Shown here piece after piece: positions 5,753 to 63,800 of a stretch of 64,000 nt of DNA. This stretch comes from Phytoseiulus persimilis (Eukaryota > Arthropoda > Arachnida > Mesostigmata > Phytoseiidae), in contig CM075102.1 of the NCBI GenBank assembly GCA_037576195.1, positions 37,692,745 to 37,756,744 on the forward strand, given 5' to 3'. Made by a program: the position numbers and the translations under genes. Within the stretch, counting starts at the first letter, position 1. Each line of letters opens with the position of its first letter. The notes beneath the pieces were generated by a model. It saw only the letters and a list, made by a program, of their open reading frames with translations, had not been told where the DNA came from and did no database searches.

Positions 5753-6511
5753 TTACTTCCAGCAGTTCTTCTCGTAGTCCCACTTCGAAGAAATGCCCTC
5801 GACGGGATTAGCTCTGATGTCGATCATACGTTTCAGTTGAGCCTGCTTCGCTTCGTCGCTGAGAGACTTGGGAAGAGGTGGGAGGACGAAGGTCCTGAAG
5901 AACGCGTGAATCCAGAAGAGGACGCCGACTGCGATTCCCACACCACCGACAACGAACTTCCAATCACCACGAGGAGCCTCGAATTCGGCAAACGTTTGTC
6001 GGTAGGAGTGGCGGTACAGAGCTTTTTTCTCCTCAATGGAGAGGCTCTTCCAGTCTCCTTTCTCTTTTTGGAGGATCGCATCGATCTGGGGTCCGGACTC
6101 TTGCCAGCGTACAGCGGGGTACGGCATGTCGGGCCGGTCGACGTAGCCATAGGACCCATTCATACCTGTGAGCGAAAATAACCTGTCAGGCATCGTCGTG
6201 ATCCAGCTGGAGTCTACCCGGATGAAGAGCGGAATTCGATCGTTCTCGTGCAGCACTCGAACTCCTCGTAACGAGGATCGAAGAGACGGCTTCGAGAATC
6301 GATTTTCGTCAGAGAAGAGTGCCGTCGAAAGTGGAGATCTGTCTGAACACCCGCTCTATACGGGTGTTCGCGGAAATACATTGCACCGCCGGATAACGGG
6401 CTCCCTTGCACACTTACCCTGACCGACAACCTCCCGCTTTCCGATCTGCTCTCGTCCATAGTAAGTCCTCCTCGCGAGCAAAGAGAGTGTTCTCGGTTTC
6501 AGAAAAGTCAT
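5753..6511 (-). CDS. COX4: Cytochrome c oxidase subunit 4, mitochondrial
   Basis: Nuclear-encoded subunit of respiratory complex IV in the inner mitochondrial membrane; it supports assembly and regulation of cytochrome c oxidation. Two coding exons, 6511-6418 and 6165-5753, join at CAGG|GTAAG and CACAG|GT, giving 168 residues and a TAA stop. Residues 1-25 are rich in Arg and hydroxylated residues with no acidic residue before Glu21 (starts MTFLKPRTLSLLARR), as expected for a cleaved import signal. IGKREVVG (23-30) and YVDRPDMPYPAVRW (39-52) are family landmarks. WKSLSIEEKKALYR follows, then the single membrane helix around 102-121 and the conserved end WDYEKN. The start codon was chosen because it begins the presequence and sits just after an acceptor-like site (TTGCAG at about 6517), so a 5' non-coding exon is likely further upstream. 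The length matches arthropod COX4. Confidence 0.97.
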
Positions 6512-42300: not shown

Positions 42301-45300
42301 TATTTTGTAACGTATGACAACCCGAAGGAAACCCCTCGGTCAGTGGCCGCTGTGGATCATCTATCATTTCTGTAACCGCATTCAGTGATCCTCTAGAATT
42401 GCCGTATCCTCTTCGGTGTCGCGAGGACGTGCACCTCTTTTTTGGCACACATCTGTCGCGAATATCATCGTGCCTCTTACCATTCCAGTCCACCATTCCT
42501 TGTGGGGTTAATCGAGTTAATACAGTATTTCCTCGGAGTTGCTCACACATGAGCAGAATGTTTCTCGAGCTCAGAACTGACCCACTGGTGATTATTCAAG
42601 GGTGAAGTAATTTGAGCGATCAGAGAAATCGACCCCTTCCGGGCATCGGATTCGCTTCTACAAACTTCCCCTTATCATTTCGTGCCAGCAGCCCGTGTGT
42701 CATATTTTTGGAAATGAGACCCCATCCGGCCCCATCACGAGCCCTGATCATTCGATAGGCAGCTTCGTAAGCCCGTGTCCCTTACTTGCCAGGTACCCGA
42801 TCGGTGAAGGAGCCGTCAACCGTCTCCGAGACGAGCCATCAACTTCAACGTTCCATTCAGACGCAGGTCAATACATGGACCCGAACAACTTCAAAAGTCA
42901 AATCACCGTGAAAGCTCTCCACGACTTCAGGTGCGATGGAATTGGCGGGGCCCACACAATCGTGGTCTTGCCCGATCCCCTGGGCCTGATCTCCTAGTTT
43001 ATTCCTCTAAGATTCCCACCGCATCATGTTGGATCTGAGCGCTATATCTGATAGTCTCCATCTGTTCTCTTCACGTCTCGCATTTCTATTCGATTCGAAC
43101 AATCGTAGACTGCAAATCTATGTTCAGCTTATCGAGACGTGTCCCACCATTTTCACTGGGACTAGAACCGGGAGTGTTTACGTGCGATTTTTGATCGAGT
43201 ATGAGTACAGAACTACCATACATCGAAGTGGCCCTGTTGAAGGCATACCCTTCCCTCGGATCCATCTTTCCAGGGAGAAAAAACTCGAGTCTCCTCTCGC
43301 TGTCAACGATCAGAAAATTCCGAGCATCTCCCGGGAACAGGTGGAAATAAAGGGCAAGGATGGGTTACCTGGGGATTGCAGAGAATGCGCATGATTCTTT
43401 CTCACCACGGAGAGCTCTAAGATTCCTTGAGCCGATTCGATTCTACAAGGGGAAAACTCGCGCAGATAACGAGCCTACTTTTGTTCGGTTTTCCTTAAAA
43501 AAAAAAACACATCGGCAAACGGATTCGTAAGATAACCAGCTGACCAGATAACGATCTCGGCCAATAGCGAGCGCATCTGTTGCGGTTTTTTGAGCAAAAA
43601 TGGTAAAAAAAGTTCGCTTCCTGCGAGATTTCAGGCTACCCATATGCCTCGTTATTCTTGTGTCCAGAATGCACCCAATAATCGTACCTCTTCTGCTGGA
43701 AAATATCTTCCTTTCGATGACTTTTGTACCCAGCTATTGTCAGCGATTGTGACTGATTTGTTCACTCACAACGGCTCAGTGTATGCATGCTTCCCCACTG
43801 AGCATCGCTCGATAAACGTTCGGGTTGCCCCAATAAAGCGCTCTCGAATCACGCTGTCCTCGATCAAGCTAACGATTATCTGATAGAGGCCGTACGAGAG
43901 TCGGATCACCGCTACGAGTGGGGCAAAGGTACGCGCGATTGAGCTGTCCCTGACTGCTTAGTGCTAACTCACTGGTACGTGATACTTGCCGCAACTCTTG
44001 CTGTGCCATAGGTGGTAGCAGGAACCAGTCACGAAACGACTTCATGTTCCATGCATAGTTCCGACGTCCTCCCCGTATGAAATTCCTGACGGGCTTGCCT
44101 TCACAATGAACGAGCGCTCCAGGTTCGGGATCATGATTGATTCGGGATTTGAGAAGTTACTCGCGGAATTCAACGTTGAGGGGTCGTTTCAAGTTTTAGA
44201 GACTTGATTGTACTCGAATCTCGAATGAGAGTCGGTCCACTGTTTTTCTCCGTAGAGAGTGTTCGCGGGGCCAGGGAGATCAGCGTTTGTGAAACTCCTC
44301 TCCATAGAGTCGCTATCGCGCATAACTCTCTAAACCTATATTTGCGATTTGCCTTGCAGAGCCCAGAAACCCGACGAGTTGTCGTTCCCGAAGCACGCAA
44401 TCATCACGAACGTTTTGAAGCAGGATGGCGGCTGGTGGAAGGGGGACTACGGAGGAAAAAAAGAGCACTATTTTCCGGCTAATTTTGTCGAAGAAGTCGA
44501 TCCTTCGTGCCAGACAGATGAAGACGGAACGGAAATGTCTCCGTTGGGGAGCCTCCAGAAGGGCTCCATAGACATCGCAGGCTGCTCCGTCGAATGTATT
44601 CAGTACAGGGGTCCGTTCATCTTCCGCATCAGTTCAGCAACAAAGTCTCTTCAGAAAGATATCGCTGCTCCTTCCTACGAAGAAATGGAGGAGTGGATGC
44701 AGAAAATTCGACAAATCGCTCAATCGGCCAATGACAAAGTGAGTGCGATCTCCCGTCGTGCGTACGTGCATCGCTGCTCCCCAGGCTCCGAGTTGAACCC
44801 TGCATGTGGTGGCCCCTTGTTGACGCAACGTACTTCGAGCATACGATCTGCGAGAGGAAAACCTCGCTGAAGATCCCGCCCAAACGAAGTTTCTCGTTCT
44901 CTGAATGAGTTCTCTGAATGAGTCGAACTTTTTCAGCTTGAGCAGCGCAATCAAATGGAACGCAGCCTCCGATTGGCGAAAGAGCTGTCAAATCTGATAA
45001 TTTATTGCCGATCCGTGCAATGGTGCCCTGAGCGGATCGGAAATTTCGCCGAGATGTCGTCGTTCCCTGAAACCAAGGTCGAACGCCTGCTGGTTCCTGG
45101 TCAAGTGCAATTCTTCATGAAATATCATAGGCTACAGTTCAGTCGAGTCTACCCCAAAGGTAGCAGGATCGACTCCTCGAATTATGATCCCATAAGATTT
45201 TGGAATGTCGGCTGCCAAATGGTTGCTCTCAATTTCCAGACCCCTGGTAAGCTCGCCATTGAAATCGCTAAGGATGAACTGTATTGTTATTGATGTTTCA

Positions 45301-48300
45301 TTTCTTTCCTCCTCCGAGCTCCTGCGAATCGAATCTAAGCGCGCTGTACCTTCTCAGATCGCCCCATGCAGCTCAATGAAGCTCGCTTCCTCACGAATGG
45401 AAGGTGCGGCTACGTGCTCCGTCCGGAATACATGTTCATGGATGACTTTGACCCGTATGACCGGACGAGTCTACCCGCTAGCGTACAACCTTACACTCTC
45501 ACAATTAAGGTATACATATCATATGCTCTGTCTGACTGAGTATTTTCGCGGGAATCTCAGCCTGGACCGGAATCAAGACCCTCTGTCGCGGGCGAAGTTC
45601 CAGATCTCCTGGGGTGCGGGAGCTTCAGCTTCGCTTTGAGCTGCTCCGACAAACTAAGAAACGAAGGATCTTCGGCTCGATCTGGTCCATCTCAAATACG
45701 GATATGCGATGTACAATATTCCACCGATCCTGTTCCTCGCCTCAGCTGATTGAGGCTAACATCCGAGTTGTCCGAAGGGGCTCCCAGGGTGCGGGGCGCG
45801 GAGCTCAGGAACTTGTGAGACCCGTGAGGTGTTTTGCCATCGAATCAATCTCGAATGCTGACCGGCGGGGGTAGGGACAGATCCTGGAGGTCTCGCTCTG
45901 AGCTGTTCATAAGGTGCAAACCATGCTGATCAGTCAGCCAGGAATCTGACTTGTAGAGGGACTCGACTCAATGAGTTGCGGAATCTTCATCTTTCCGTTC
46001 GTCTCCTAGCGATCGTATTCCCAACCTGTTGTAGGATGCACGATCTGTTCTCAACGTAGAGCGCGTTTCGTGGTATGGGAGAACGAACCGGAAACTCTCG
46101 ATTGTTTTCTCTCCTTCATCGTTCCTCGATTTTTGAGCGTTCGTGAGATTTTTCGATCCGAAATATTCCCATCCACGCGTGCGAGTACCCCGGCGGAACC
46201 ACTTTCCGGTGGAAAAAAGGCGTCATCAACCTGCTGAGGATTGCCGGGAGGTTTCTGATTCCACAAGCGCGAGAACGAAGCGGAAGAACGAATTTATTGG
46301 AAACAGACTCGGGCTCATCGGTATTCCAGCCTTGCGGGGTTGAACTTGACTCATATCCGCGGTAAATCATCAAGGGACGTCCCACCGCCTTCTCGAACCG
46401 TCCGAGAAGGTTTTCTTTCGGCGATGCGCAATCCTTGGCGAAGGCGAGAACCCGCGACCGGCGAGTCAGTTTCATAACCGGAGTCCCTGGAGGGAAGTTC
46501 GTGGGAAGGACACCAGCGGGATTTAATCGTTTCCCGTCGGCTTCATGCTCTCAGTTTTCGACGACCTCGATTTTCAGAGAGCAGAGTTAGTTCTCAATCA
46601 TCCAGGAATCGCTGTTTCTCCATCGCGGATGGCAGATGGCAGAAGTATGCAGAACGCGTTCGCTCACGGATGGCTCATTTATTTTCAGGTTATTGGGGGT
46701 CGTCATCTGATGAAACCAGGTCGCGGTATCGTGAGTCCGTTCGTTGAAATCGAGCTCGTTGGAGCTGACTACGACAATGCCAAGGTCAAGACTGCCACGA
46801 TATGTAAGTTGTGGAGGGAGGAGGCGGCCGCGGACTCCGGGCCAGGGTAGAAATGCTGTATTGGAAAACGATATTGAGCTCGACGAAGTGCTTGAAGAAC
46901 GAACGATGACGAGCCCGGGACGTTCGGCAGTACCATTGTCACAGCGGAGCGGAGAATGACAAAGAATGGCCCACGCGCTTCCCGTTCCAAGGACGCACTG
47001 TTTTCAATTCCTCGTCAATCTCCCTGTTGCGCCAGCTCGCCGAAGATTATTCAATTCGAGCTCAGACTCCTGTTTCCCATCATTGTTCTTCGCTCCCGGA
47101 TGCGAAAGTTGTTCTTGCCAACAACTCTGACGACTTCGAGGAGAACGAATCGTCCGCCGACCGGGCCCAAATCTGAGTCCTCATACGTACATTTATTTTC
47201 AGCTGATAACGGTTTAAATCCTGTCTGGAATGAACTCGCCATCCTGGACGTCGCGAACCCTGAAATAGCTTTGCTCCGTTTCGTCGTCTACGACGAAGAC
47301 ATGTTCGGTGATCCAAACTTCTTGGGTCAAGCTACATATCCGGTTTTGTGTCTCCGGACTGGTTACAGAAGTGTGCCTCTAAGAAACGAATACAGTGAGG
47401 ATCTAGAACTAGCCTCTCTACTGATACATTTCGAGATGAATCCCGCAAAGGTACGTGTGTCCATCGAGAAAGTGTGTTGTTCCCCCGCTGAGAAAGGGGT
47501 AGCTTCCCGCTCGTAGAGTCAGTGTCACGCGCGAAGCATGACAGGTTCCTGTCCCGAACTAGTTGCGGTGTTTGAGCTTCGTTGCTACCGAGCTGATCGA
47601 GGTGGGAATGGGGGTGGTCGTAGAGAAGACCGACGCCGGAGCCCATGGCGTGCGGGGACGTCTAATTACGACAAGCGCTTGGTTAGATAGTTAGTTAGTT
47701 TCTAAGCCCCTCCGGCCGAGCTTCCAGCATCTCGATGTTTTTAATCACGCCGGCGAGTGGGAGACGGTTGTGGCAACATTTCCCGCCGAGGCCTCCAACG
47801 AACTAGTTTATGACTCGAGCGTTTGGCTGGGTTGTACGCTAACGCTTGTTTGAGCTCATGTCGATCGGGACTCAGTGAACCGTTGAAGAATCGTCACTTT
47901 TCATCCCTTCCTCGAAAGCGGCAACTTTCTCGTCGATCCTTGATCATGCGCTGATACTCCGACTCGCGGTCGCCTCCTGCGGCGAGATTCGTTGTTCCTG
48001 TGATAAGAAGTCTGAGTTTGTGTGGCGGTAGAGGCGTGACGACTGACGACGTGCGAATGCGAGCGTAGCGGGTTCCGCGCGAGTCTGCGTTCAGGTGGTG
48101 TCAGCTCGCAGAAAGAATAACTCTTCTCCTCCCGAACTCTAGCCTGAAGACGAAGTTTACGCATCGATTCAAAAACTGCGGGATGAAACTCGCGAACTGG
48201 ACGCTCGTCTCGGAGGTGTTGACGGTGGACTCGACGCTGAAACGGCTTCGCAGATCCGAAACACGCTGCAGGAGATGAAGGAACAGTTGAAAGCGAAGAA

Positions 48301-52044: not shown

Positions 52045-55000
52045 TTGATGTTCGCGGACAGGATGTTCTCTGCGCGACATGATACTCGCAAATACAGAGA
52101 GCCCGCCGACCTTGGAGAAATCCTTATTTCTCATTACAGTTGTACATCGAGAGGGGAGACCGATGCGAACATAGAGATGATGGATCGTGCGCAGACTGTA
52201 ATAGCCCTCATCCATCCATCGAATCGAATGTTGTTCCGAACGTTTCGAGGACCAGATCTGTACGAAATGCTGACCGTGAAGCCGGTCGCCCATCACAGGC
52301 CCCGAGCGAGGGATGGGACTTGCGGAGCTTTGAGACTCCTGAAACCCTGCCAATTTTTCCTCCGCTTCTTCGGCGTTCGACTCTTGCGATCGGACAAGAG
52401 CTCGATTTGCAGATCATACATCGACCGGGTGCTCAGGATGGCAGTGTGGTCGGCTTTGCTAGCATACGCCGTCGCAGGAGCTTTGTGCCTATTCTCGTTG
52501 TTGACCAACATTACGAAGGGTGGGTGGGGTCCATTAATTAGCTTAATCCAGTTTAGCGGTCTGCTGTAATTCTCCGCTGTGTGGACAGAACTCACTGTGT
52601 GCCCTCGCTCCTGTGCATTTACAGGGACCACGGTTCTCTCATCAGACGGGATCCATTCAGTGCTGGCGTACGTGACCTCGATTATTCTCCTTGGAGGCTC
52701 CTTTCGAACCGCTGCCGCGCCGAAGTGAACGATTTCCTGCAACGAATGGACCAGTACACCACCGCGACAAGGGATCCCCAAGTGCCTTATAAATCGAGCT
52801 CGGTATCGTTCCTCTACGCTATGCTAGCGATCCTCGTTCTCCACTCAGCCTGCCTGAGCTACACGGCGTCGGTCTTGGACTACAAAGTCATTCCCAAAAG
52901 CTAGCACTATAATACCCCTGCCATCGGACAATGCGACATCGAGCAGAGATGTGGCGGGGGCTCCGTCTGCCCCGAAACTCGGGCCGGGGGCAGACTCTGT
53001 CGGAGCTGGTTCGACCGAACCACGGGAGCTGGGTTCAGTGCGGGGGGAGAATTCGTTGGCTTGGGCTTTTCGATGGACGACCTGGCCCACAGAGATGACC
53101 AAGGTGAACCTGCGGATGATGGAGAGGCTGATAACGAAAGCGATCAGGGTCGGAGACGCAAACGCTCCGCCGCCAGGGCCGGTATAGATCTCCGTCCGCG
53201 AGGGAAATAGTTGTTGAAGCATCGCAAATCTCGGAGAATGAGGCGACCTATGACAACGATAATGGAACCGAAGACGAGCAGCGCGATCGAGGACTCGCAG
53301 GGAAGGTTCGTGCGAATCTGGGAACAGATCAAATCCAGGCGGCGGCGGAATCGTCGCAGATTTTTTCCGCAACGAGTTTCCTATTTCTAAGCAAGTTTCC
53401 CTCATCAGTTACCTTCCGACGTTCTCTGTACAGATTTTGTTCCGAACGAGGAGGGGCCTCATCGATTCGGCAATTGACGAAGACATTGATGGAGAGGGAG
53501 TGAATTTCATCGAGTTCTTCAGACCGTTCCGTTTAGCCATCACAACCACGCGCTACTTCGTCATCAAAAACATCATCTATTTGAGGTGGCTATTCCAGCT
53601 CGCTGATCTTTGTGCGGTTGCGGTTGGCATATGCGCTCCGATCCGCCAGGCTCCATCTGCCTATACAGTGGGATATCTGTGGAGTTGGACAGGGCTCATT
53701 GCCCCAACGGGATGCCCTGGGTGAATGAAGTCATCATCTAATTTCAGTGCGACTCTTATCAGCTGCTTCTGCAGAATTGTTTGCCGTCGATTGCTCGAGG
53801 TAAGCTCCAGTCACTGATCTCGCTTCCGGGTCACAACGAGGAGGGATCTTTCGACACCAGATTGCGATTTTCGCAAGTTCTCACAATGAGATCGAATCCC
53901 AGGTGAACAGTCGACTGGCCAGTAAACAAACGCCTGAGTTGACAGTTGACGTGCTCGCGGATATGCGTCAGAAACACTCCCAGTGCCTCTCCTTATTGCG
54001 AGAGATTGAGCAGAGCTTCAGGTGGGTCTGATGCGATTCCAGCTCGCAGGGTTCGTTTCGTTTGTCAAGCGTTCCAAGCTCACGACCGTGAACGAGCCGA
54101 AAACTGACTGTGAAGTTGAGACCGAGCGGACGTGCTCCATGACAAGTGGGCCTTCGAGCGGATCCATAGGGTTCGCATGGATCATGCGGATTTTTGAAAA
54201 GCCCCATTACGAGCTAAAATCTGAAATTCCCCAGAGCTTGTCTCATTCCAGCTTTTTCTGCCTCCTGTGGAACTTGCTGACGTTTCTGGAGATTGTTTAC
54301 ATCGGCCGTATGATCTATGAGATAAATGTAACAGCTCTATATGGACTGCCCGAGGATCCATTATGGACCCTCGGTTACAGCTTCGTACTAAGCGTTGACA
54401 TCGTGCTCCTGACCGTCTTCCATCTGAATTTCGTCCACGCGGCTGCGAGTGTACGTCTTGAGGCTCTCAAAACCGTCGACATTGTGACCATAGGTGAGTA
54501 TGATCGTGGAGGATGTTGACACATGAATGGACCAGCACGATACTCGTCTACGCAATGCGGTTCGAGCGTTTGTCGCGACCCCGACTCGAAGGAAATCAGG
54601 ACTTCGTGTCGGGCTCTCCGCTCCGGCTCTATTCCCATTATTGAAGTCGATTCTGACACGGATAGGAAGTGATGGCAGGTCGTTCAAGGTTTTAGTAACA
54701 TATGCGACGCTGGACTAACACCTCTGCCATTTCTTGGCAAGCCAGCGCATATTCACTGCGTCCGCAATGTCCCAGACTCCGCAAATTGGAAGATCTACGA
54801 TGCTTTTTGCGACCTGTAGGAGTTCAGAAAGTATGTCGACACGTCCCTGTCATCCTCTCAAAACTCGAAGGGCCCCTCCCGGAGCGCCGGTGGAAGTTTG
54901 CGAGACATTCTGATGCAAAAGTTCGACTGAGACTGACAACGAAGAGCTGGTGTTTGAGTTCTCGAGACGAGCTCTCCGCATCTCATCGATGCATGCATGA

Positions 55001-57082
55001 GGAAATAGTTGTGATGTTGATACTTGTGATTCCCGAGAACTTTTAAATTCCGGAACTTCGTTCTCCGGGGCTTCCTGAGATCGATCGTTCATCAAGGTGG
55101 TGGATCCCGGCCGTAGCGTTCGCTCCGACTCCATCGCACACTCCGCCGAGGCTCAGACCTATTATTCCGCTCGACGAACACGCGTACATTTATATCGGGC
55201 CAGAGTTTCGATCTGACTCCCCTTACGCGTGGGATCATGCTTCTGAGGATCGGATCTTCGGTCGCATTGATGGTGTTGTGAACGTTCCGACCGTTGACAC
55301 TTGAATCCTTCGAGCCTCTCGAGGAGCCAGTCGCCGAGCCGAGCAACCCCAAGCGAGCTGGAGCGGAACGAGGCAGAAAAAAAACGTCGGAAGCACTCGT
55401 TTGAACTTTCAGCAGAGGAGTTAGTGCCGCTCGTTCACAGGAGGAACGAGTGAGTAAGTGGGTGGGCCCACTGCTCGCCATCCAGGCTCTCCTGTTTGCC
55501 TGACTGGTTCGCTGACTTGCTGCGAGAGATGACTCCCAGAGAACGCCTGCGTAATCCCTCGAGCTTTAACTCATTACTTCTTCATTTCTCAGCTCATTAG
55601 TGGCTTAAAGTCGGATAACTCGGGTAAACGGGGCAAGGTGGTAGCGTCACGCCAAGCTCGGTTCGCGAGTCCATCGGAGCTTGCGAGCCGAGCACCTACG
55701 GCTTCGTGACCAGCTATCTTACGTCCAGTGAAGGCAGCAGCTCATCAAAAACCGAAAGGGATTGAAGCCGGCAATGAGGTTCGCCAGGCCTGTCTGAGGA
55801 TTCCGGTATAGAGGCAGCGACACCCATCACACTCCGACCGGCCGACCTGAGCGTACGTTCATCCGCTAGCTCTGCTTGCTTCGCCGCACATGGGCAGGCA
55901 GACGGACGGACGGACGGACGGACCGACCGACGGGCGGACAAGGGGAAAGCCACGTCCAGGAGAAGCTCTTTCATCCTCACAGACTTGCCTGCTTTAACTT
56001 CCCCCTGTTTTCCTTTTTCCGTTAAAAGAGACAGTGACGTTGCCCGAGACACTGGTTCAAGCCTTGCCGGCGGAAAAAACGACAAGGCAGCTGCAAACTC
56101 AATGACACGCCGATGAACCGCAACTTGCGTTCATTCTCGCCGGCTCCGACGAGGACAGACTGCTGCTATGAGTGGGAAAACGAAGCGAAGGAAAATAAGG
56201 GAACCATAACAACGGACTCGTGGCCCGAAACTTTCCTCAATCGAGGCGATCAACTTTTCCATTGAATCGTAGATTTTATCACGCAGCTGATGTCTCCCAA
56301 TCATCTCGATGAAAATCTCAAGATAAAAGCTGCGGAGCTTTCCCACAAGATTCGATGGATTTTCGTGCCGTTGAACAAAAGCCTCTCCCGATGAGCTTGG
56401 ACGCGACTGAGCTAGCAACTCCGACCTACTTAGAAGAACCGTTCCGGAGGCTTCTTCATATTGTAGTGATCGAGCCTCGCCTCCAAAGCCCATAAACTCC
56501 TATCCCCGTTTTCTCATCGAAGGGTTGCTCACGATCTCGCTGTGTCAGATTGGCTCGCGAGAAAAACGAACATTTTTTCCCAGGAACGGCGAGCATCCCA
56601 CCGAATCGTATCGAAGCACACCAACAGGCCGAACTGCTTGTTTCCGTCGCCACCATCCGCGACCCGGGCCTGAGCGTCTGGGACATTCTACCTCAGACTA
56701 AAGTTTTCGGCTATCTCGTCCTACTGTTCGCATGCACCGTTTCTTTCACGCATATCCAGTTCCTCCGAGATGGTCGGTGGATGAATGTATTCGGACACGT
56801 CCTACAAAACAGCAAGGTGAGCCGTGGTCGTCTCGCACGTCTCCAAAAGTCCCGCCATAGCAAGAGTCATGGTGAGATTGCAGACTGCAGCGCGTGACTT
56901 TCCTGGAAGCCCGACATGACCATGAGGGAGCCAAAACTTTGGAGAGTGAACAACGGAACTCCACAAACTGAAACTTGTCTTAATTTCAGAGGAAGTCAAA
57001 CCTCCCGCCTCGGACGAGGATAGCCTACTCGGAGAGGAATTGGGAGCCGCTTTCGAAGAGCCGGTCCACTGAGCGGGGATAA
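52045..57082 (+). pseudogene. Gustatory-receptor-like gene A, probably decayed
   Basis: Tandem paralogue of gene B. Exons: a1 52045-52519 (LLKPCQFFLRFFGVRLLR and TM1); a2 from 52625 (TM2, TM3, linker); a3 53434-53585; a4 53748-53799; a5 53903-54021 (loop MRQKHSQCLSLLREIE); a6 54252-54493 (TM5 and TM6, EDPLWTLGYSFVLSVDIV); a7 from 54746; a8 56584-56816 (TM7 ending TVSFTHIQF, like the TY-x5-QF signature of insect gustatory receptors); a9 56990-57082. Phases match gene B exon by exon. Damage: TM2 (VLAYVTSIILLGGSF) and the loop before TM3 (VNDFLQRMDQY) lie in different frames; TM3 runs into TAG at 52902-52904; a7 has an in-frame TAG at 54816-54818. A ligand-gated cation channel in sensory neurons is the family role. 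The start codon is uncertain; Mets at 52177 or 52180 are alternatives. Confidence 0.6.
55901..55940 (+). repeat. GGAC tandem repeat
   Basis: GACGGACGGACGGACGGACG followed by GACC/GGGCGGAC variants, about 40 bases, in the 1.7 kb between receptor A exons a7 and a8. The remainder of that interval shows no recognised feature. Confidence 0.85.
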
Positions 57083-57759
57083 GATCTCAGGCCAATCCTC
57101 AGCACTCATTCATTCTCCACCCTTCGTTCGGGTCTTCTGATCTGTTCACTTCACATTGGACATGAGCCTTGCAAACGCTGTTCTGGACCTCAGGAACACT
57201 TTGTGTCAAGTTTCCCCTGTTCCTGTAACTATCGTTTCCGGAAGCATTTTTCCGCCGTTGTGGGCCTGCTCTTGGGAGCGATAGTTTCTGCGCGCAGTCT
57301 GCACAACAAGAACCGTTTAGTACTGCGGGATTCCAGTCGAATTATGAGGTCGCCGACGCGCAGTAATCTCATGGAATAACAACCATCTCTCAGCGAAAAA
57401 ACCTTTCGTATTCTCTGGAGGATTCCGAGCGGTGTGATTGCAAATGGATCCAATCTGGTTCTGAACGGTAGCCTTCGCGGCTGCGAGACGAGTTTCCGCT
57501 TATATTCTGCGGCGGAAAATGCGAAAACATGAGCGACTTGGGGTAAATATACTTCAGACGAGGACGGGTAGCACAGTCACTCACGGGCAGAGCTGTTGTC
57601 GCATAACAAGCCTCCGTATGTACCTTCTGCTGTGAACGGGTCTAATAGTGCGGCAAATACTCTCCCGATATTTGCCTTGCTGCTAATGGTTCATCAGTCA
57701 TGGGGGTCGGTGCGGAATTCGACAAACGTCCACAATCGACTCTGCCCTGACAGTGTGCC
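57083..57759. other. Spacer between receptor genes A and B
   Basis: Less than 0.7 kb separates the end of gene A from the start codon of gene B, as expected for a tandem duplication. It should hold the promoter of B. No defined element was recognised. Confidence 0.5.
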
Positions 57760-60700
57760 ATGGAGCTCCAGCGAGCGCGAAAGTTTGAGCGGGGAGACAT
57801 TGGGCCTGCGAGCATGGTCGTCACGATGAAAACCGATCCCCGTCTGGTGAAGCCGTGTGTTTTCCTTTTGAAGATTTTCTCCATCGGAATTACGTGGCGA
57901 ACCGAGAGAACTGCTCGCGGGACAAAGTTGCTCGCCGTTGTTTACCGAGCCTCCCTCTGGACAGCGGTTGTGCTCTACGCTCTCTCGAGGACAGCTTATT
58001 TCCTCTCCCTACTGAGCTACTCAGGTAGTATTGATTCCACACGAAAATACTCGAAGTCGCGAGGCCCTCGCTTCACTCTGGATCGTCACTCTTGAACTGT
58101 GACGATCGAGTGGTGGTTTCTGTGGTTCTCACACCGGAACCTCAACCGTTGTCTCGCCCCGCCCCCCCCCCCCTCTCTCTCTCGGTGCGAGGAAGCTAAT
58201 TTCCCCTCTCAATCTCTCGACCAGGTTTGATCCGCCTCGTGACGTTGGACGGCCTCGATGACGCAGCATTCATCGTGTGTTCTTTCGTTCTTCTGACTCA
58301 AAGCTACAGCGGACTCCAGCTCGACGAGCGAGTTAACGTTTTGGCGAACGATCGTCGCCGAAGGCCGTTCAAAAGTTACGTTGCTTCGAGTTTGTTCTTC
58401 GGATGTTTACTGTTTCTGTTGGGCTCTTCATCCGTGTTAGTTGTTCTCAGTCCAGTTCTGGAGAAGGACTTGCCTCAACCAGCGCCCAAATTTATCACCA
58501 CAACGGAAGCACCGACAACTACAAAGCGGAGCAACATCGCGGCAGGCGCAGGGGGTGTTCCCGCCGAGGACTTGGACGGCAAACTCGGAGCGGGAGGCGA
58601 CAGTTCCCGTCTGAGGAACGGCTTGGGAAATCCTGGAATCTTTGGGAACGGCGGGCCTGGTGGCGGTCTCGGAGCCAGCGGCGTCATTGACTTCGATGGC
58701 AGAATCAGCATTCCAGTCGCGGGAGCAGGTTTCGGAGTGGGTTTCGCATCCGGGACCACAGCGAAGGAATCGAACCCGACCGGTGTATTCGGGAAGGGAG
58801 GTAAACTCGGTGGTGTGGACGGAGCGGGCTCGTTCAGCAACTTCCAAAACGGACTTTGGCTGGACAAGACGGAAGACGGTGTCATCGCGGGTGGAGGCCG
58901 CAACCCGCTTCCCGGGATCCACGGAGCTGGTGCTGCTGCGGGTGCAGAAGGGACCCCGAAGGATGCTTCGCTACAGAACGGTGCATCAGCAGGACAAAGG
59001 ATTTCATTCGGTGAGGACGGTGCTGGCAGTTCCCTCGACAGGAGAGAGGACGACAGACTAGCCGAGAAACGAGGAGGAACTCCATCATCAGCCAAGGACG
59101 GAGGTAATTCAGAAGGACGAGGCGCGGAACTCCACGTTGATTCCGAAGGGGTCGAAACAAACTTTGGTTCGGAAAAGCAGGGACCGTCGTACAAATGGGA
59201 ACTGCTCGGGATAAGACAGGTATGGTTCTTCAGATCCGGAGAAGCAACTCGGCGGCATCAGCGGTTCCCATGGACGACTAGGAATCGGAGTCGAAACCTT
59301 GTTGTTCGAGGAGAAAGGGTCTGATGCCCCCGGAAGAGAGTCGAGCGATGCGACCTACGCGACAGGGAGAGACAGAAACCCCGGAGCAGTGGACCCGCAC
59401 CACTTCGGCAATCCCGGTGGCCGTCATCGGAGCCCAATTGTCAAACCAGACTTGGGGGCGACGACTGTGAGTATCCTCGGCGCTCATTCGACTGATTGAA
59501 ACTTCGGAACGACTGAGCTTTCTCGCCTTCCAGGGACATTTCTCGACCCGCCAGAAACGCGAACTCGTCACTGTACCTGAGGAAGAAGTGAGGAATTCAA
59601 CATCGCGACGTGTCCTTGATTTCCTGCGGGAGGGAGTCGGAATCTCGACATTTGTACGCTATGTGCTTCTACGGAACTTCGGACTCCTGTCGTAGGTATC
59701 ATCCTCCACACATTCCGACCGCTCTTCGCTCGCGTGCTTGTTGAGTTTTATCATTGCTACGTCGGGAACAGATGGGGAACGCAGTGGGAGGATGATGAGA
59801 ACGTGGTCGGACCTCAGAAAAGGCGTCGAAGAACTGAGCAGGCGAAGATAGACGAGGCGAGAAGTGTGATCGTGATTGCATGAGTTCAGGAGTCTTTCCG
59901 ACTAGGGTGGTCCTTTGAATCGATGTCTCTCGCGAGAGAGAACCTTTTCATCTGTGGAAGCGTCCTGCTGATTTGAGTGCCAAGTGATCTATCGCGTCGA
60001 CGAAGAGAGAGAAAGAGAGAAACAGAATCTCGTTGGAGTCGAGCGATGGTTTAGCGGAAAGCCGGGGCCGCGTGCTGTCGGATCTAATCGAATCTGATGT
60101 CGATTTTACAGAGTGGCGTTCTCAGCTGCGTTATGTTGGACCGTCAGAGAACAGCTCCGGACGCTCAACGAGGCTTTGGATCCTTCGACGACGGATCGCG
60201 AGATGCCATCAGAAGAGGTGCTCGGTGAAACGAGACAGATGTTCCTTCAGAGCATCGTTTTGTGCCGAAGTATTGATCTGCTCTTCAGGTAGGTCAGACC
60301 TTTTTCCGGCAGCATGGACTTCCGAGAAACTTCGTTCGAGCATTCTCGTTCGTTGACGGCACCATTCCCGACTTTCTCGGCTCTTCGCACGGGGCTTCAC
60401 TCGGAGCTCCAGCTGGAGTCGGAACGATCAAAATATCAGACTCGCGAGCGATAGCAGGCGGATTCGGTCTGAGGAGCTCATTGATGCTGACCACCTGAGG
60501 TGCCTGGCAAAAACAGTGTTGCAGTCTCAAGATGGCAACGTTATTGCAGGCAATTGAGTTTGGTGTGGACCTTGATTGTGTTTGTGGACGTCCAACTGAT
60601 GCTGGATTTGATCTACGAGATGCCATCAGCGACGGGAGTGGTTTCGGTTCCGCCGAAAGTTGTGATCCTGATCCATCTTACCGTTCTCACTGTACTGCAC

Positions 60701-61764
60701 ATTTTTTTCACCGAGGGCGCGGACAGGCTCCGGTGCGAGTTTGGAAGAACTCTGCATCTTGTGGCTGTTTGTAAGTCTGGTGGGCAGTGTTAATTTGGGG
60801 GGGGGGGGGGGGGGTATCGCCGATTCTCGGCGTTATCGGTACGCTCAGCGGCCAGTACCGTCAGTTCGATTTTCACCGTGTCATGTCGGTGGGCTCGTGG
60901 CTTGATGGCTTGTCGTCGGAGGGGACGCATCTGATACAAATACGCTCTTCTCGCTCCGTTGTGTTCAGAATTCCAAAGCATCGATACACGAACCCGGCCG
61001 TACCGTGGTTTCCGGAAGCTATTGGAGAATTCAGTTGTCATCTTGTCGAGTAGGAACTCCTTTGTACACTCCACAGAAATGTTCTTGTCCCAGCAGCGAC
61101 GTCGCTGTCGTCTCTGTTGTAGGAGGTGGATGTTTCCTCAGCAACAACGACAATGACGGAGAGACCGTTTTTCCCTCAGAGGCCGACTTCTATCTTTGTC
61201 TCTTTAGTTGAACAATGCTGCACCTTCACAAGGCGATTCGTTATCGCTTCGTGTCGCTCTCTGACTTTGTGGCGAATCTTGCTCCGTTCCTCTCTGTCAA
61301 CTGACCCTGAAGAATGCTTTACTTCACGAGCAGCTCGTGCGTTTCCTCTGAGCAGCACGAGACAGATCTTCACTCGACCGGTCAACGAGCCTGAAGTCCA
61401 CCGACATTGAGCTCCGGAGAAACTGCAGATTATTTAGCTCCGGCCAAACGCATCTCATCGCGGTACATCCTTCGCCTGGAGCTGGCGTTCCGGGAGACGT
61501 TTGATCCGCTTCCCGGACGAAACTGGAGAACATGCCAGAATCCAATAGTATTCGACTCCAACCGGATTTCTCACGTTTCCAGGCACCGCTGGCGTTCCCT
61601 CGGAGGCTGTGGGACTTTTGGAACAGGCGGCTCTTTTGATATCCGCTGGAACTTCTTCACCCGCCGGTTTGACGTTTTGCAGCATCACTCCATATTCGAG
61701 ATCGATCGGGATGGGTGCTTTTTGCGCTTCATTGGTCAGCAGATGGTACTTCTGGCACATTTAA
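57760..61764 (+). CDS. Gustatory-receptor-like gene B with a glycine-rich extracellular insert
   Basis: Exons: B1 57760-58024 (RLVKPCVFLLKIFSIG, TM1); B2 58225-59466 (TM2 around FIVCSFVLLTQSYSG, TM3 around FFGCLLFLLGSSSVLVVL, then about 330 residues of linker); B3 59534-59691; B4 60112-60288 (loop with ETRQMFLQSIVLCRSIDLLF); B5 60550-60770 (TM5 WTLIVFVDVQLMLDLIYEM and TM6 VVILIHLTVLTVLHIFF); B7 from about 60979 (tentative); B8 61583-61764 (GTAGVPSEAVGLLEQAALL, TM7 region, TAA). Phases match gene A. The start sits in GCCATGG. Oddities: the linker changes frame near 59190-59215 as read, and the C-terminus lacks a clear QF and ends early, so B may also be damaged or the sequence may contain indel errors. 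The family role would be a sensory ligand-gated cation channel. Confidence is good that A and B are paralogues and moderate for the family name. Confidence 0.6.
58157..58183 (+). repeat. Poly-C and CT-repeat in receptor B intron 1
   Basis: A C-run followed by (CT)n, about 40 bases upstream of the B2 acceptor. It probably serves in part as an extended pyrimidine tract. Confidence 0.7.
58450..59466 (+). other. Glycine-rich linker between TM3 and TM4 of receptor B
   Basis: It begins with a Pro/Thr-rich, mucin-like segment (TTTEAPTTTKR) directly after TM3, then long Gly/Ala/Asn-rich sequence with motifs such as GNPGIFGNGGPGGGLGASG and GAGFGVGFASGTT. In gustatory-receptor topology the TM3-TM4 loop is outside the cell and usually a few tens of residues long. 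The frame is open for over 900 bases after TM3, and the final part (59215-59466) continues in another frame with the same composition. Confidence 0.7.
60797..60814 (+). repeat. Poly-G run
   Basis: Eighteen consecutive G just after the donor of receptor B exon B5, near the 5' end of the following intron. Confidence 0.9.
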
Positions 61765-63800
61765 CCGTTCTCCCGGTGGGGCAACGACCGGAATGGGGAA
61801 ATCATCGAGTTTTTTGTGACTTATGCGGTGAGCTCTGTCGATGCCCGATGTATGGCGAAACCACTGTCTCGAGGAATAATGGCCGAGCAAGAAAATGCCT
61901 TCCAACGGAAAGGAGGAAGCGAGAGCCTCGGTTTTTTCGCACTTCACCTTATGAGGCTTGTCGCCACGGTCACGTCGCATTCAGTGCACTACAAATGATA
62001 GGTTCGTGTCGGACGCAGGTGTCAGCCGGCTGAAACGGAACACTCCCGACACATTCCTCTGCCATGTCCAGCAAGCTGTTTTCCATGTAGCTGACTCCAG
62101 CCGAAACGTGACTAAAGTCGAAATACTTACGTAAGTCAGGGTGTCGGGAACCACTTTGCCTCCGAGATGCTCAAATCGGGGTGGGTCGTTGAAGGAAGCG
62201 ACACGTGGAAAGCTCGCGGTACTGTCACGCAGCCCGAACCCCGTTCTCCCGTTCGACCCGATTCGAACTCGATGTTCAGGATCACGACGGAGCATGGAAG
62301 GAACCAGAACAGGGAGAGACCGGGCTGGTCGAGGTCTTGTTTGCAGAAGGCGCTTTACTCAGAGCAGCGAACGTCCACACCCGCCATGCAGTCATGCCTG
62401 GACCACACCCGTTCACCGGGTGGCGGCCTTCTCCATTCCGCAAGAATACTCAGGATGAGCTAGCTATCCGAGGAGTGAAGACGGGTCGACGGGCGGTAAA
62501 CAGATAGGAGGCTCAGTGAGGGTACAAAGCTGGATTAAACTACAACAAGACGGTCCATTCCGCCTTCGCGGCGCAAAAGGAGGAGAACCACGCATCCGCA
62601 GCATAGTTACGAGCTTCAGATATGCGCATATCCAGATCAATTCGTGATCTGTAGCACTGGTTTAGTTTCCCGAGAGGCTCCAACGAATACAATGCCAGTC
62701 ATGAGTAGTGCCTCCGGGGAGGTAGTCCCCAGAAATATCTAGCTAGTCCCAACAGTGCGGATCCTGCGACCGACGGCTTTGTCTTGGCTTGCGGTCATTT
62801 AATCGCATCAAAGCATCAGGAGAAAGGGCGCATAGGGAGAAAATCCTTTTCCGTGCAATCCATACTCGTATTTGAGACACGTAGGCCCACAACCGACGGA
62901 ATCGGAGAGAAAGAATATCAATCAGCTTCAGGTACCGCGGTCGCGACTTTTTCGTAAGCGACGTGACGTTGGCAGTAATCGAAGAGCAATACGTCAAGAA
63001 TCGAGAGGAGGGGGGAGAGGGGGCGCTGAAGGCCTCGAACGACGAGGTACTGCCAAGAGCCTCAACGAGAACAGCGAGAGGCCTTGGCGGAAAACGGAGA
63101 CGCGCGCAGACACACACAGGGCCGTTTGACTAAGAAAAGGAAGCGGCCGACCGGCTCCTCTCAGTCAAGGGCTGGCGAAGTTTTCCTGCTTGATTATTAA
63201 CACTTTTATGCAAACGAAGAGTACGGGTGAGAAGAGCGCAGCTCCTCAGCTCTGATTAATTGCAGCCGATCGCGGTAAGACCGCCGCGGTCCCTCCATCC
63301 GACGAGGTGGCTTTTGTTAGTCGGAACGAGCCGAGACACCGGAGCAAGCAACAACGTTCACGAAATTCCCCACCGCTAGCGCCGATGGCGGATACGTCTC
63401 AACCTGTGTCGCCCCATCTCCTCCCCCTCGAGGTTCCATCTCTGAGCCCCAGCTGTTGCATCGAAGATTTCCTCGAATGACCACAATTAGCCTCAACTCG
63501 GTAAAACTCCCGTCACCGCGTTCTGAACCGCACAGCTCAAGGATCAACACAGACCCCGGTGCTTTTTCAGATAGCTATTGCGAGCGGGCGAGTGCTTGGT
63601 ACCTCGGCTGGGGGGAAACAAATCTATTCTCCAATATCTTCTATTACCGCGTTCATTATCGGCGTCTTCGACCCTGCGCTCCCCACAATTTTCTACGCAG
63701 AACGTCTTACTTGTTGGTGATAAACAGGATGATTCAGGAGAGGATTGAGAGCCGAAAAGAATCCCCATCCCGTTCAAGCCTTGAGAGGCTGTGCTCTCAC
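61765..63800. other. Unassigned region downstream of receptor B
   Basis: Plus frames at 61990-62130 (VSRLKRNTPDTFLCHVQQ) and 62205-62507 (RFELDVQDHDGAWKEPEQGE) look coding by composition. The first ends at an excellent donor, CTTAC|GTAAGTC. The opposite strand has an equally good donor at the same place. I could not decide which strand is transcribed and recognise no domain. The plus frame 63456-63944 is also unassigned. Confidence 0.3.

Follow-up and report, generated by a model that had tools for sequence, protein, structure and literature searches.

The locus raises the question of whether a chemoreceptor-like gene can carry, between its third and fourth transmembrane helices (TM3 and TM4), an extracellular glycine-rich loop of about 300 residues, and if so, whether that loop is translated, how old it is, and what it might do. 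An earlier note on this DNA had described such a loop of ~330 residues, likened it to silk or mucin, and suggested that it tethers the receptor to cuticle or matrix or confers mechanical or hygroscopic sensing. The window analyzed here is a stretch of 64,000 nucleotides from Phytoseiulus persimilis (GenBank assembly GCA_037576195.1), and the features of genes A and B described here lie on its plus strand. It is located on contig C2 of an assembly of 181 Mb in 127 contigs (C1 to C4 measure 54.7, 52.0, 38.9, and 28.1 Mb). The loop belongs to gene B, whose tandem paralog, gene A (52280-56820, ends approximate), is a frameshifted member of the 7tm_7 family. On its minus strand, the window also encodes cytochrome c oxidase subunit IV (5756-6355; Pfam COX4, E = 7.6e-49). 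SH3, PH, and C2 Pfam matches lie at 44334-44867 and 46896-47513 (PH just below cut-off), which we take from their domain layout to be probably a phospholipase C gamma gene.

The coding status of the glycine-rich stretch was assessed from its frames, composition, and periodicity. No stop interrupts frame 0 (position mod 3 = 0) between 58200 and 59321, and at 374 codons this run is longer than any other open frame of the window. Across 58461-59219, this frame contains no stops, compared to a mean of 5.06 in dinucleotide shuffles (18 of 5,000 had as few), and a Gly fraction of 0.225, compared to 0.131 in the shuffles, none of 5,000 being as high; the remaining two frames of the same strand contain 3 and 5 stops, with Gly fractions of 0.060 and 0.107. 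The Gly-rich part of the loop proper (58548-59219, frame 0) is 25% Gly, a fraction likewise reached by 0 of 5,000 shuffles. Three-base periodicity over 58461-59219 was strong (chi2 of 42.2 versus 5.7 for the null; at most 1 in 2,001 shuffles) and was found in the first half of the stretch (p = 0.0005) as well as the second (p = 0.004). Eight noncoding controls of 200 to 2,087 bases gave p values of 0.088 to 0.65; these comprised four introns of gene B (58025-58224, 59692-60111, 60289-60549, and 60771-61582), the intervals 62000-62800, 55100-55900, and 56830-57630, and the last intron of gene A (54494-56580, which includes 55100-55900). Among the six exons of gene B itself, with exon 2 represented by its TM2-TM3 part only, periodicity reached p = 0.0005 in one and ranged from 0.047 to 0.40 in the rest, and such weak values may be expected of short pieces. 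Codon-usage scoring was too weak to discriminate between frames. The open frame, the Gly enrichment, and the periodicity together show, as the earlier note had claimed, that the coding sequence of TM3 runs, or once ran, on into this stretch.

The earlier note had drawn the loop over 58450-59466, an interval that does not form a single open frame; frame 0 stays open as far as 59321. A frame 0 stop follows at 59322-59324, and the Gly-rich text beyond 59220 sits in frame 1, in which Gly is again enriched at 59221-59466 (0.183 versus 0.098 in shuffles; reached by 4 of 5,000). Periodicity was absent at 59220-59466 (p = 0.28) and at 59104-59219 (p = 0.49). The 374-codon frame contains no Met codon, which points to exon 2 as an internal exon and led us to reject the loop as a separate gene. 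A mobile element was rejected as well, since the loop is present in a single copy in the genome, both as DNA and as protein, in searches that scored only the best candidates and skipped simple repeats. On the minus strand opposite the loop, 260 Pro-rich codons are open (58478-59257); this frame had no Pfam match, was rejected as a gene, and is probably a by-product of the plus-strand codon pattern.

Gene B could be read through six exons, every intron being GT-AG, in complete in-frame models that begin with the ATG at 57760 and close with the stop codon 61762-61764. Exon 1 (57760-58024) carries the start codon, the N-terminal part, and TM1 (peak KD of 1.76) in an open frame and ends at a phase 1 donor, CAG/GTAGTA. 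Exon 2 (58225-59219), open in frame 0, encodes TM2, intracellular loop 1 (IL1, containing RRRR), TM3, a Pro/Thr/Ser-rich neck, and the Gly-rich loop, the loop part being periodic. Exon 3 (59534-59691) encodes the end of the loop, with RQKR at 59549-59560 and the sequon NST at 59594-59602, and the start of TM4; exon 4 (60112-60288) encodes the remainder of TM4 and IL2; and exon 5 (60550-60770; periodicity p = 0.0005) encodes TM5 and TM6 (KD of 1.93 and 2.06). Exon 6 (61583-61764) contains the TM7 region, lacking the family signature, and the stop, and matches the last coding exon of gene A. An alternative acceptor for this exon at 60968 was dropped; it creates a stop at the junction, whereas the exon at 61583 has its counterpart in gene A. 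A run of 18 G residues lies at 60797-60814, within the last intron.

Two models differ in how the loop is completed. In model i, a single intron (59220-59533; donor CAG/GTATGG, acceptor TTCCAG) joins exons 2 and 3 in frame through the top-scoring donor and acceptor of the scanned stretch, the donor being of phase 0 with a score of 4.8, to give a protein of 665 aa with a 286-residue loop. In model iii, introns at 59104-59233 and 59467-59533 enclose a possible extra loop exon in frame 1 (59234-59466), Gly enriched and aperiodic, to give 704 aa and a 325-residue loop. We lean toward model i. The ~330 residues proposed earlier come close to the length in model iii. A 31-base intron placed by hand at 59189-59219 (GT...AG) restores the frame but is too short to accept, and its donor falls outside the best 25.

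The reading in which all or most of the Gly-rich stretch is spliced out of the mRNA, leaving a receptor with a short or moderate loop, was considered against these sites. A phase 0 GT directly after TM3 in gene A (manual reading) makes a short loop conceivable in the pair. In gene B, the next phase 0 donor is a weak one at 58737 (score of -1.1), use of which would leave a loop of ~125 residues; the accepted donor at 59692 scores -1.6 and is thus not better. The scores derive from an approximate matrix, with sites 59467, 59692, 60289, 59533, and 60111 as the yardstick. However, the phase 0 donor at 59220 is much better, and frame 0 is stop-free, enriched in Gly, and periodic in both halves of the stretch that would be removed. 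We therefore regard removal of the loop by splicing as quite improbable.

Gustatory receptors of the 7tm_7 family are seven-helix, tetrameric ligand-gated cation channels. Gene B alone, queried as 393 aa (the N-terminal 22 residues and 250 residues of the loop being omitted), did not match the 7tm_7 model (PF08395) at E values up to 10, the search yielding one chance match (E = 3.2), and B minus the loop and exon 6 had no PDB match at E values up to 10. Gene A, read through without its loop, did match 7tm_7 (E = 3.4e-7; 30.3 bits, cut-off of 26.6), and BLASTP aligned B with A at 25% identity over 391 alignment columns (E = 7e-29). An ungapped alignment of the last coding exons of the two genes spans 60 columns and has 14 identical residues, a result reached by 0 of 20,000 shuffles. 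Intron phases, read manually, are shared by B and A at four junctions (TM1/TM2, TM4/IL2, IL2/TM5, and TM6/TM7), and in both genes the TM4 exon is entered through a phase 0 acceptor; A has one extra intron in IL2. Because B is a paralog of A and A passes the Pfam model, B is related to the gustatory receptors and has an outsized extracellular loop 2 (EL2), and the chemoreceptor likeness proposed earlier was supported by way of A. Judged by sequence, A and B are a two-gene tandem array of gustatory-receptor relatives. When the genome was searched with B (E up to 1) and with A (E up to 10), the matches were to their own exons and, weakly, to each other's first exon (E values of 0.17 and 0.11), and no further relatives of either gene were found among the best candidates scored. 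A comparison by hhalign of the pair, without loop and TM7, to a profile built from four intact receptors found no match (probability of 0.2).

In gene B, TM1 to TM6 have KD19 peaks of 1.58 to 2.47, the value for TM3 being 2.47. Past TM6, peaks of 1.54 (residues 600 to 618, spanning the exon 5/6 junction) and 1.27 (residues 622 to 640) remain, and the last 22 residues contain no KD peak of 1.0 or more. Gustatory receptors are described in an excerpt of PMC11100771 as bearing the TM7 signature TYhhhhhQF; B has VSRWYFWHI at this place, with 0 of the 4 residues, and A has TVSFTHIQF, with 3 of 4. Excerpts of PMC7746228 give a length of about 350 to 500 aa as a family criterion and, together with PMC9998090, intracellular loops that exceed the extracellular ones as a screening criterion. 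At 665 or 704 aa, B lies outside the length range, and its EL2 of 286 residues is longer than any intracellular loop (IL1, 25; IL2, 50; IL3, 51), against the second criterion. Since B departs from the family in its Pfam score, TM7 signature, length, and loop proportions, we do not class it as a typical member or as one proven to work.

The state of gene A bears on whether B is still functional. Its frame is broken between TM2 and IL1, the sole nearby GT (52725) yields no explanatory intron, and its TM3-TM4 gap of 547 bases has stops in all three frames. As a control, 26 of 27 HSP70 matches in the same assembly had no inside stop, which indicates that such breaks are not routine assembly errors; together with four other receptors of the genome that have open frames of 394 to 544 codons, this makes a pseudogene more likely than an assembly fault. 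A GACG tandem repeat of ~10 copies lies at 55901-55939 in the last intron of A. With A lost and the pore helix of B devoid of the family signature, the pair seems to be under relaxed constraint, and B, though open under both models, may be decaying too. The earlier note had mentioned neither the frame break of A nor the state of TM7 in B.

A rival reading is that B, like A, is a decaying pseudogene whose loop was formerly translated and which no longer makes a working receptor. The evidence for this is that A has at least one frame break beyond any GT-AG intron although the HSP70 genes of the assembly are clean, that the Gly-rich text of B switches frame inside the loop region, and that the TM7 signature of B is gone, its last 17 residues lying beyond the end of the BLASTP alignment with A and the adjacent frame of the same exon 6 DNA (61716-61772) being more hydrophobic (KD of 1.47). 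This must be weighed against the complete open models of B with GT-AG introns and the periodicity retained in the loop and in the TM5-TM6 exon, and we consider it possible but less likely than not that B is such a pseudogene.

The earlier note had also held the loop to be older than the duplication. The best division of the A gap into three pieces with free breakpoints scored 51.1, a value that none of 200 shuffles (maximum, 42.9) and none of 20 noncoding windows (best, 46.5) attained; the test is counted as weak owing to the free breakpoints and the partial overlap of the 20 windows. The gap of A may thus be the broken remnant of a coding loop. The gap as a whole showed no periodicity (p = 0.29), and alignment of its three frames with the B loop was not significant, 29, 120, and 134 of 500 shuffles reaching the score. 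Given this small margin over noncoding DNA, the aperiodic gap, the insignificant alignment, and the broken state of A, a loop predating the duplication is possible at most.

The composition of the loop was compared to what had been proposed for it. The Pro/Thr-rich neck after TM3 was found as described, with 28 residues (58449-58532) of which 46% are T, S, or P. Of the proposed Gly/Ala/Asn-rich repeats, the richness in Gly was borne out: the loop is 20% Gly, with 9% Ala, 8% Ser, 7% Leu, and 7% Glu. At 4% Asn, it is not Asn-rich, and no clear repeat unit was detected, the best self-match being 0.147 versus 0.089 expected, with no tandem repeat. The loop has no Pfam family and no protein relative in the genome at E values up to 1, so that the proposed likeness to silk or mucin is not sustained. 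In model i, its 286 residues include 31 K/R, 36 D/E, no Cys, and one sequon, the NST near TM4. Disorder-promoting kinds of residue account for 69% of the loop, and by charge and hydropathy it plots just beyond the Uversky boundary, among folded proteins (H of 0.437 versus a boundary of 0.420). In single-sequence AlphaFold2 modeling of exon 2, TM2 and TM3 came out as helices and the loop as coil, with very low confidence (mean pLDDT of 39.3; block values across the loop of 29 to 55), a prediction made without an alignment and usable for helix versus coil only.

The location of the loop outside the cell is inferred from the topology of the family. Counts of K/R versus D/E (N-terminal part, 12 versus 5; IL1, 6 versus 3; IL2, 6 versus 9; IL3, 3 versus 5) do not settle sidedness. 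This outside position, along with the length and likely flexibility of the loop, is what would favor a working extracellular tether or a sensor of strain or humidity; with no repeat unit, cysteine, Pfam family, or related protein in the genome, such a role seems highly unlikely. In length, the loop departs from other receptors of the same genome. The PF08395 profile found 11 places, of which 4 were used for the comparison, with two further regions (three more places) inspected only and the four remaining places left out. In all four intact receptors examined, the TM3-TM4 peaks, assigned manually, are separated by 8, 8, 20, and 24 residues, compared to 300 residues in gene B by the same peak-to-peak measure. 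The genome holds receptors in uninterrupted frames of 394 to 544 codons (loci L008, L009, L011, and L015) alongside multi-exon genes like A and B.

Directly ahead of TM4, both paralogs carry a basic RX[KR]R site, RQKR in B and the aligned RTRR in A (53443-53454). RX[KR]R is the furin consensus. By residue shuffling, the chance of finding a site of this kind in an equally long stretch is 0.0152 in B and 0.0103 in A; B has a second one, the RRRR of IL1. It is conceivable, though we think it quite unlikely, that the pair founded a receptor type in which a giant disordered loop is cut after this site to leave two chains. If so, a TM1-TM3 chain would bear a free extracellular Gly-rich tail, TM4-TM7 would form a separate chain, and the loop would be no tether, being free-ended or shed.

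Taken together, these results make it narrowly probable, in our judgment, that B is a divergent 7tm_7 gustatory-receptor relative whose EL2 has expanded to ~286-325 Gly-rich residues serving as a flexible spacer, in a pair under relaxed constraint. The coding signal of the loop, the Met-less frame, the complete GT-AG models ending in a stop, the shared intron phases, the homology of B to A, and the passage of A over the 7tm_7 cut-off support this, as do the short TM3-TM4 gaps in four of four receptors, the uniqueness of the loop in the genome, and the coil predicted by AlphaFold2. Counted against it are the lack of a 7tm_7 match for B, the absence of all of T, Y, Q, and F from its TM7, the Uversky point on the folded side, the null results of hhalign and codon usage, and the donor at 58737. 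Gene B would then be the still open member of a tandem pair whose partner is broken. Its Gly-rich, repeat-free loop is probably unstructured, and would be translated and lie outside the cell. If the protein is made, it is predicted to work most likely as a normal subunit of a receptor channel, with the loop acting as a flexible, poorly constrained spacer above the ligand-binding face rather than as an adhesive or mechanical module. If a 7tm_7 member carried nearly 300 residues in one outside loop, this would demonstrate that a large disordered insertion can be tolerated on the ligand-facing side, and members with a long EL2 could escape family screens that apply the loop-length and 350-500 aa criteria. 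Even a dying gene B would still mark a place where loops of this kind can arise.

Among known systems, gene B is closest to the arthropod gustatory receptors (PF08395), to which it is homologous through A and with which it shares six clear TMs in family order, a positively charged IL1, and a last exon at the place of TM7. It differs from the solved Bombyx mori Gr9, which has a short S3-S4 loop according to an excerpt of PMC11100771, in having an EL2 of 286 to 325 residues and in having lost the TM7 signature. Literature searches of open-licence papers brought up no title or abstract opening describing a Gly-rich loop in a gustatory receptor. The insect odorant receptors, including Orco, belong to the same superfamily and have the same topology; excerpts of PMC9998090 and PMC7746228 state that EL2 is unresolved in the Orco structure, and an excerpt of PMC7067487 states that there is no evidence of odorant receptors outside insects. 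Unlike for B, a Gly-rich loop is not mentioned for insect odorant receptors in the excerpts of these sources. Variable loop lengths, as in B, are described for the GRL/DUF3537 proteins of other eukaryotes in an excerpt of PMC7746228, one green-algal GRL homolog having an IL2 of ~200 residues; the long loops of those proteins, as described there, are intracellular, whereas that of B would, by family topology, be extracellular.
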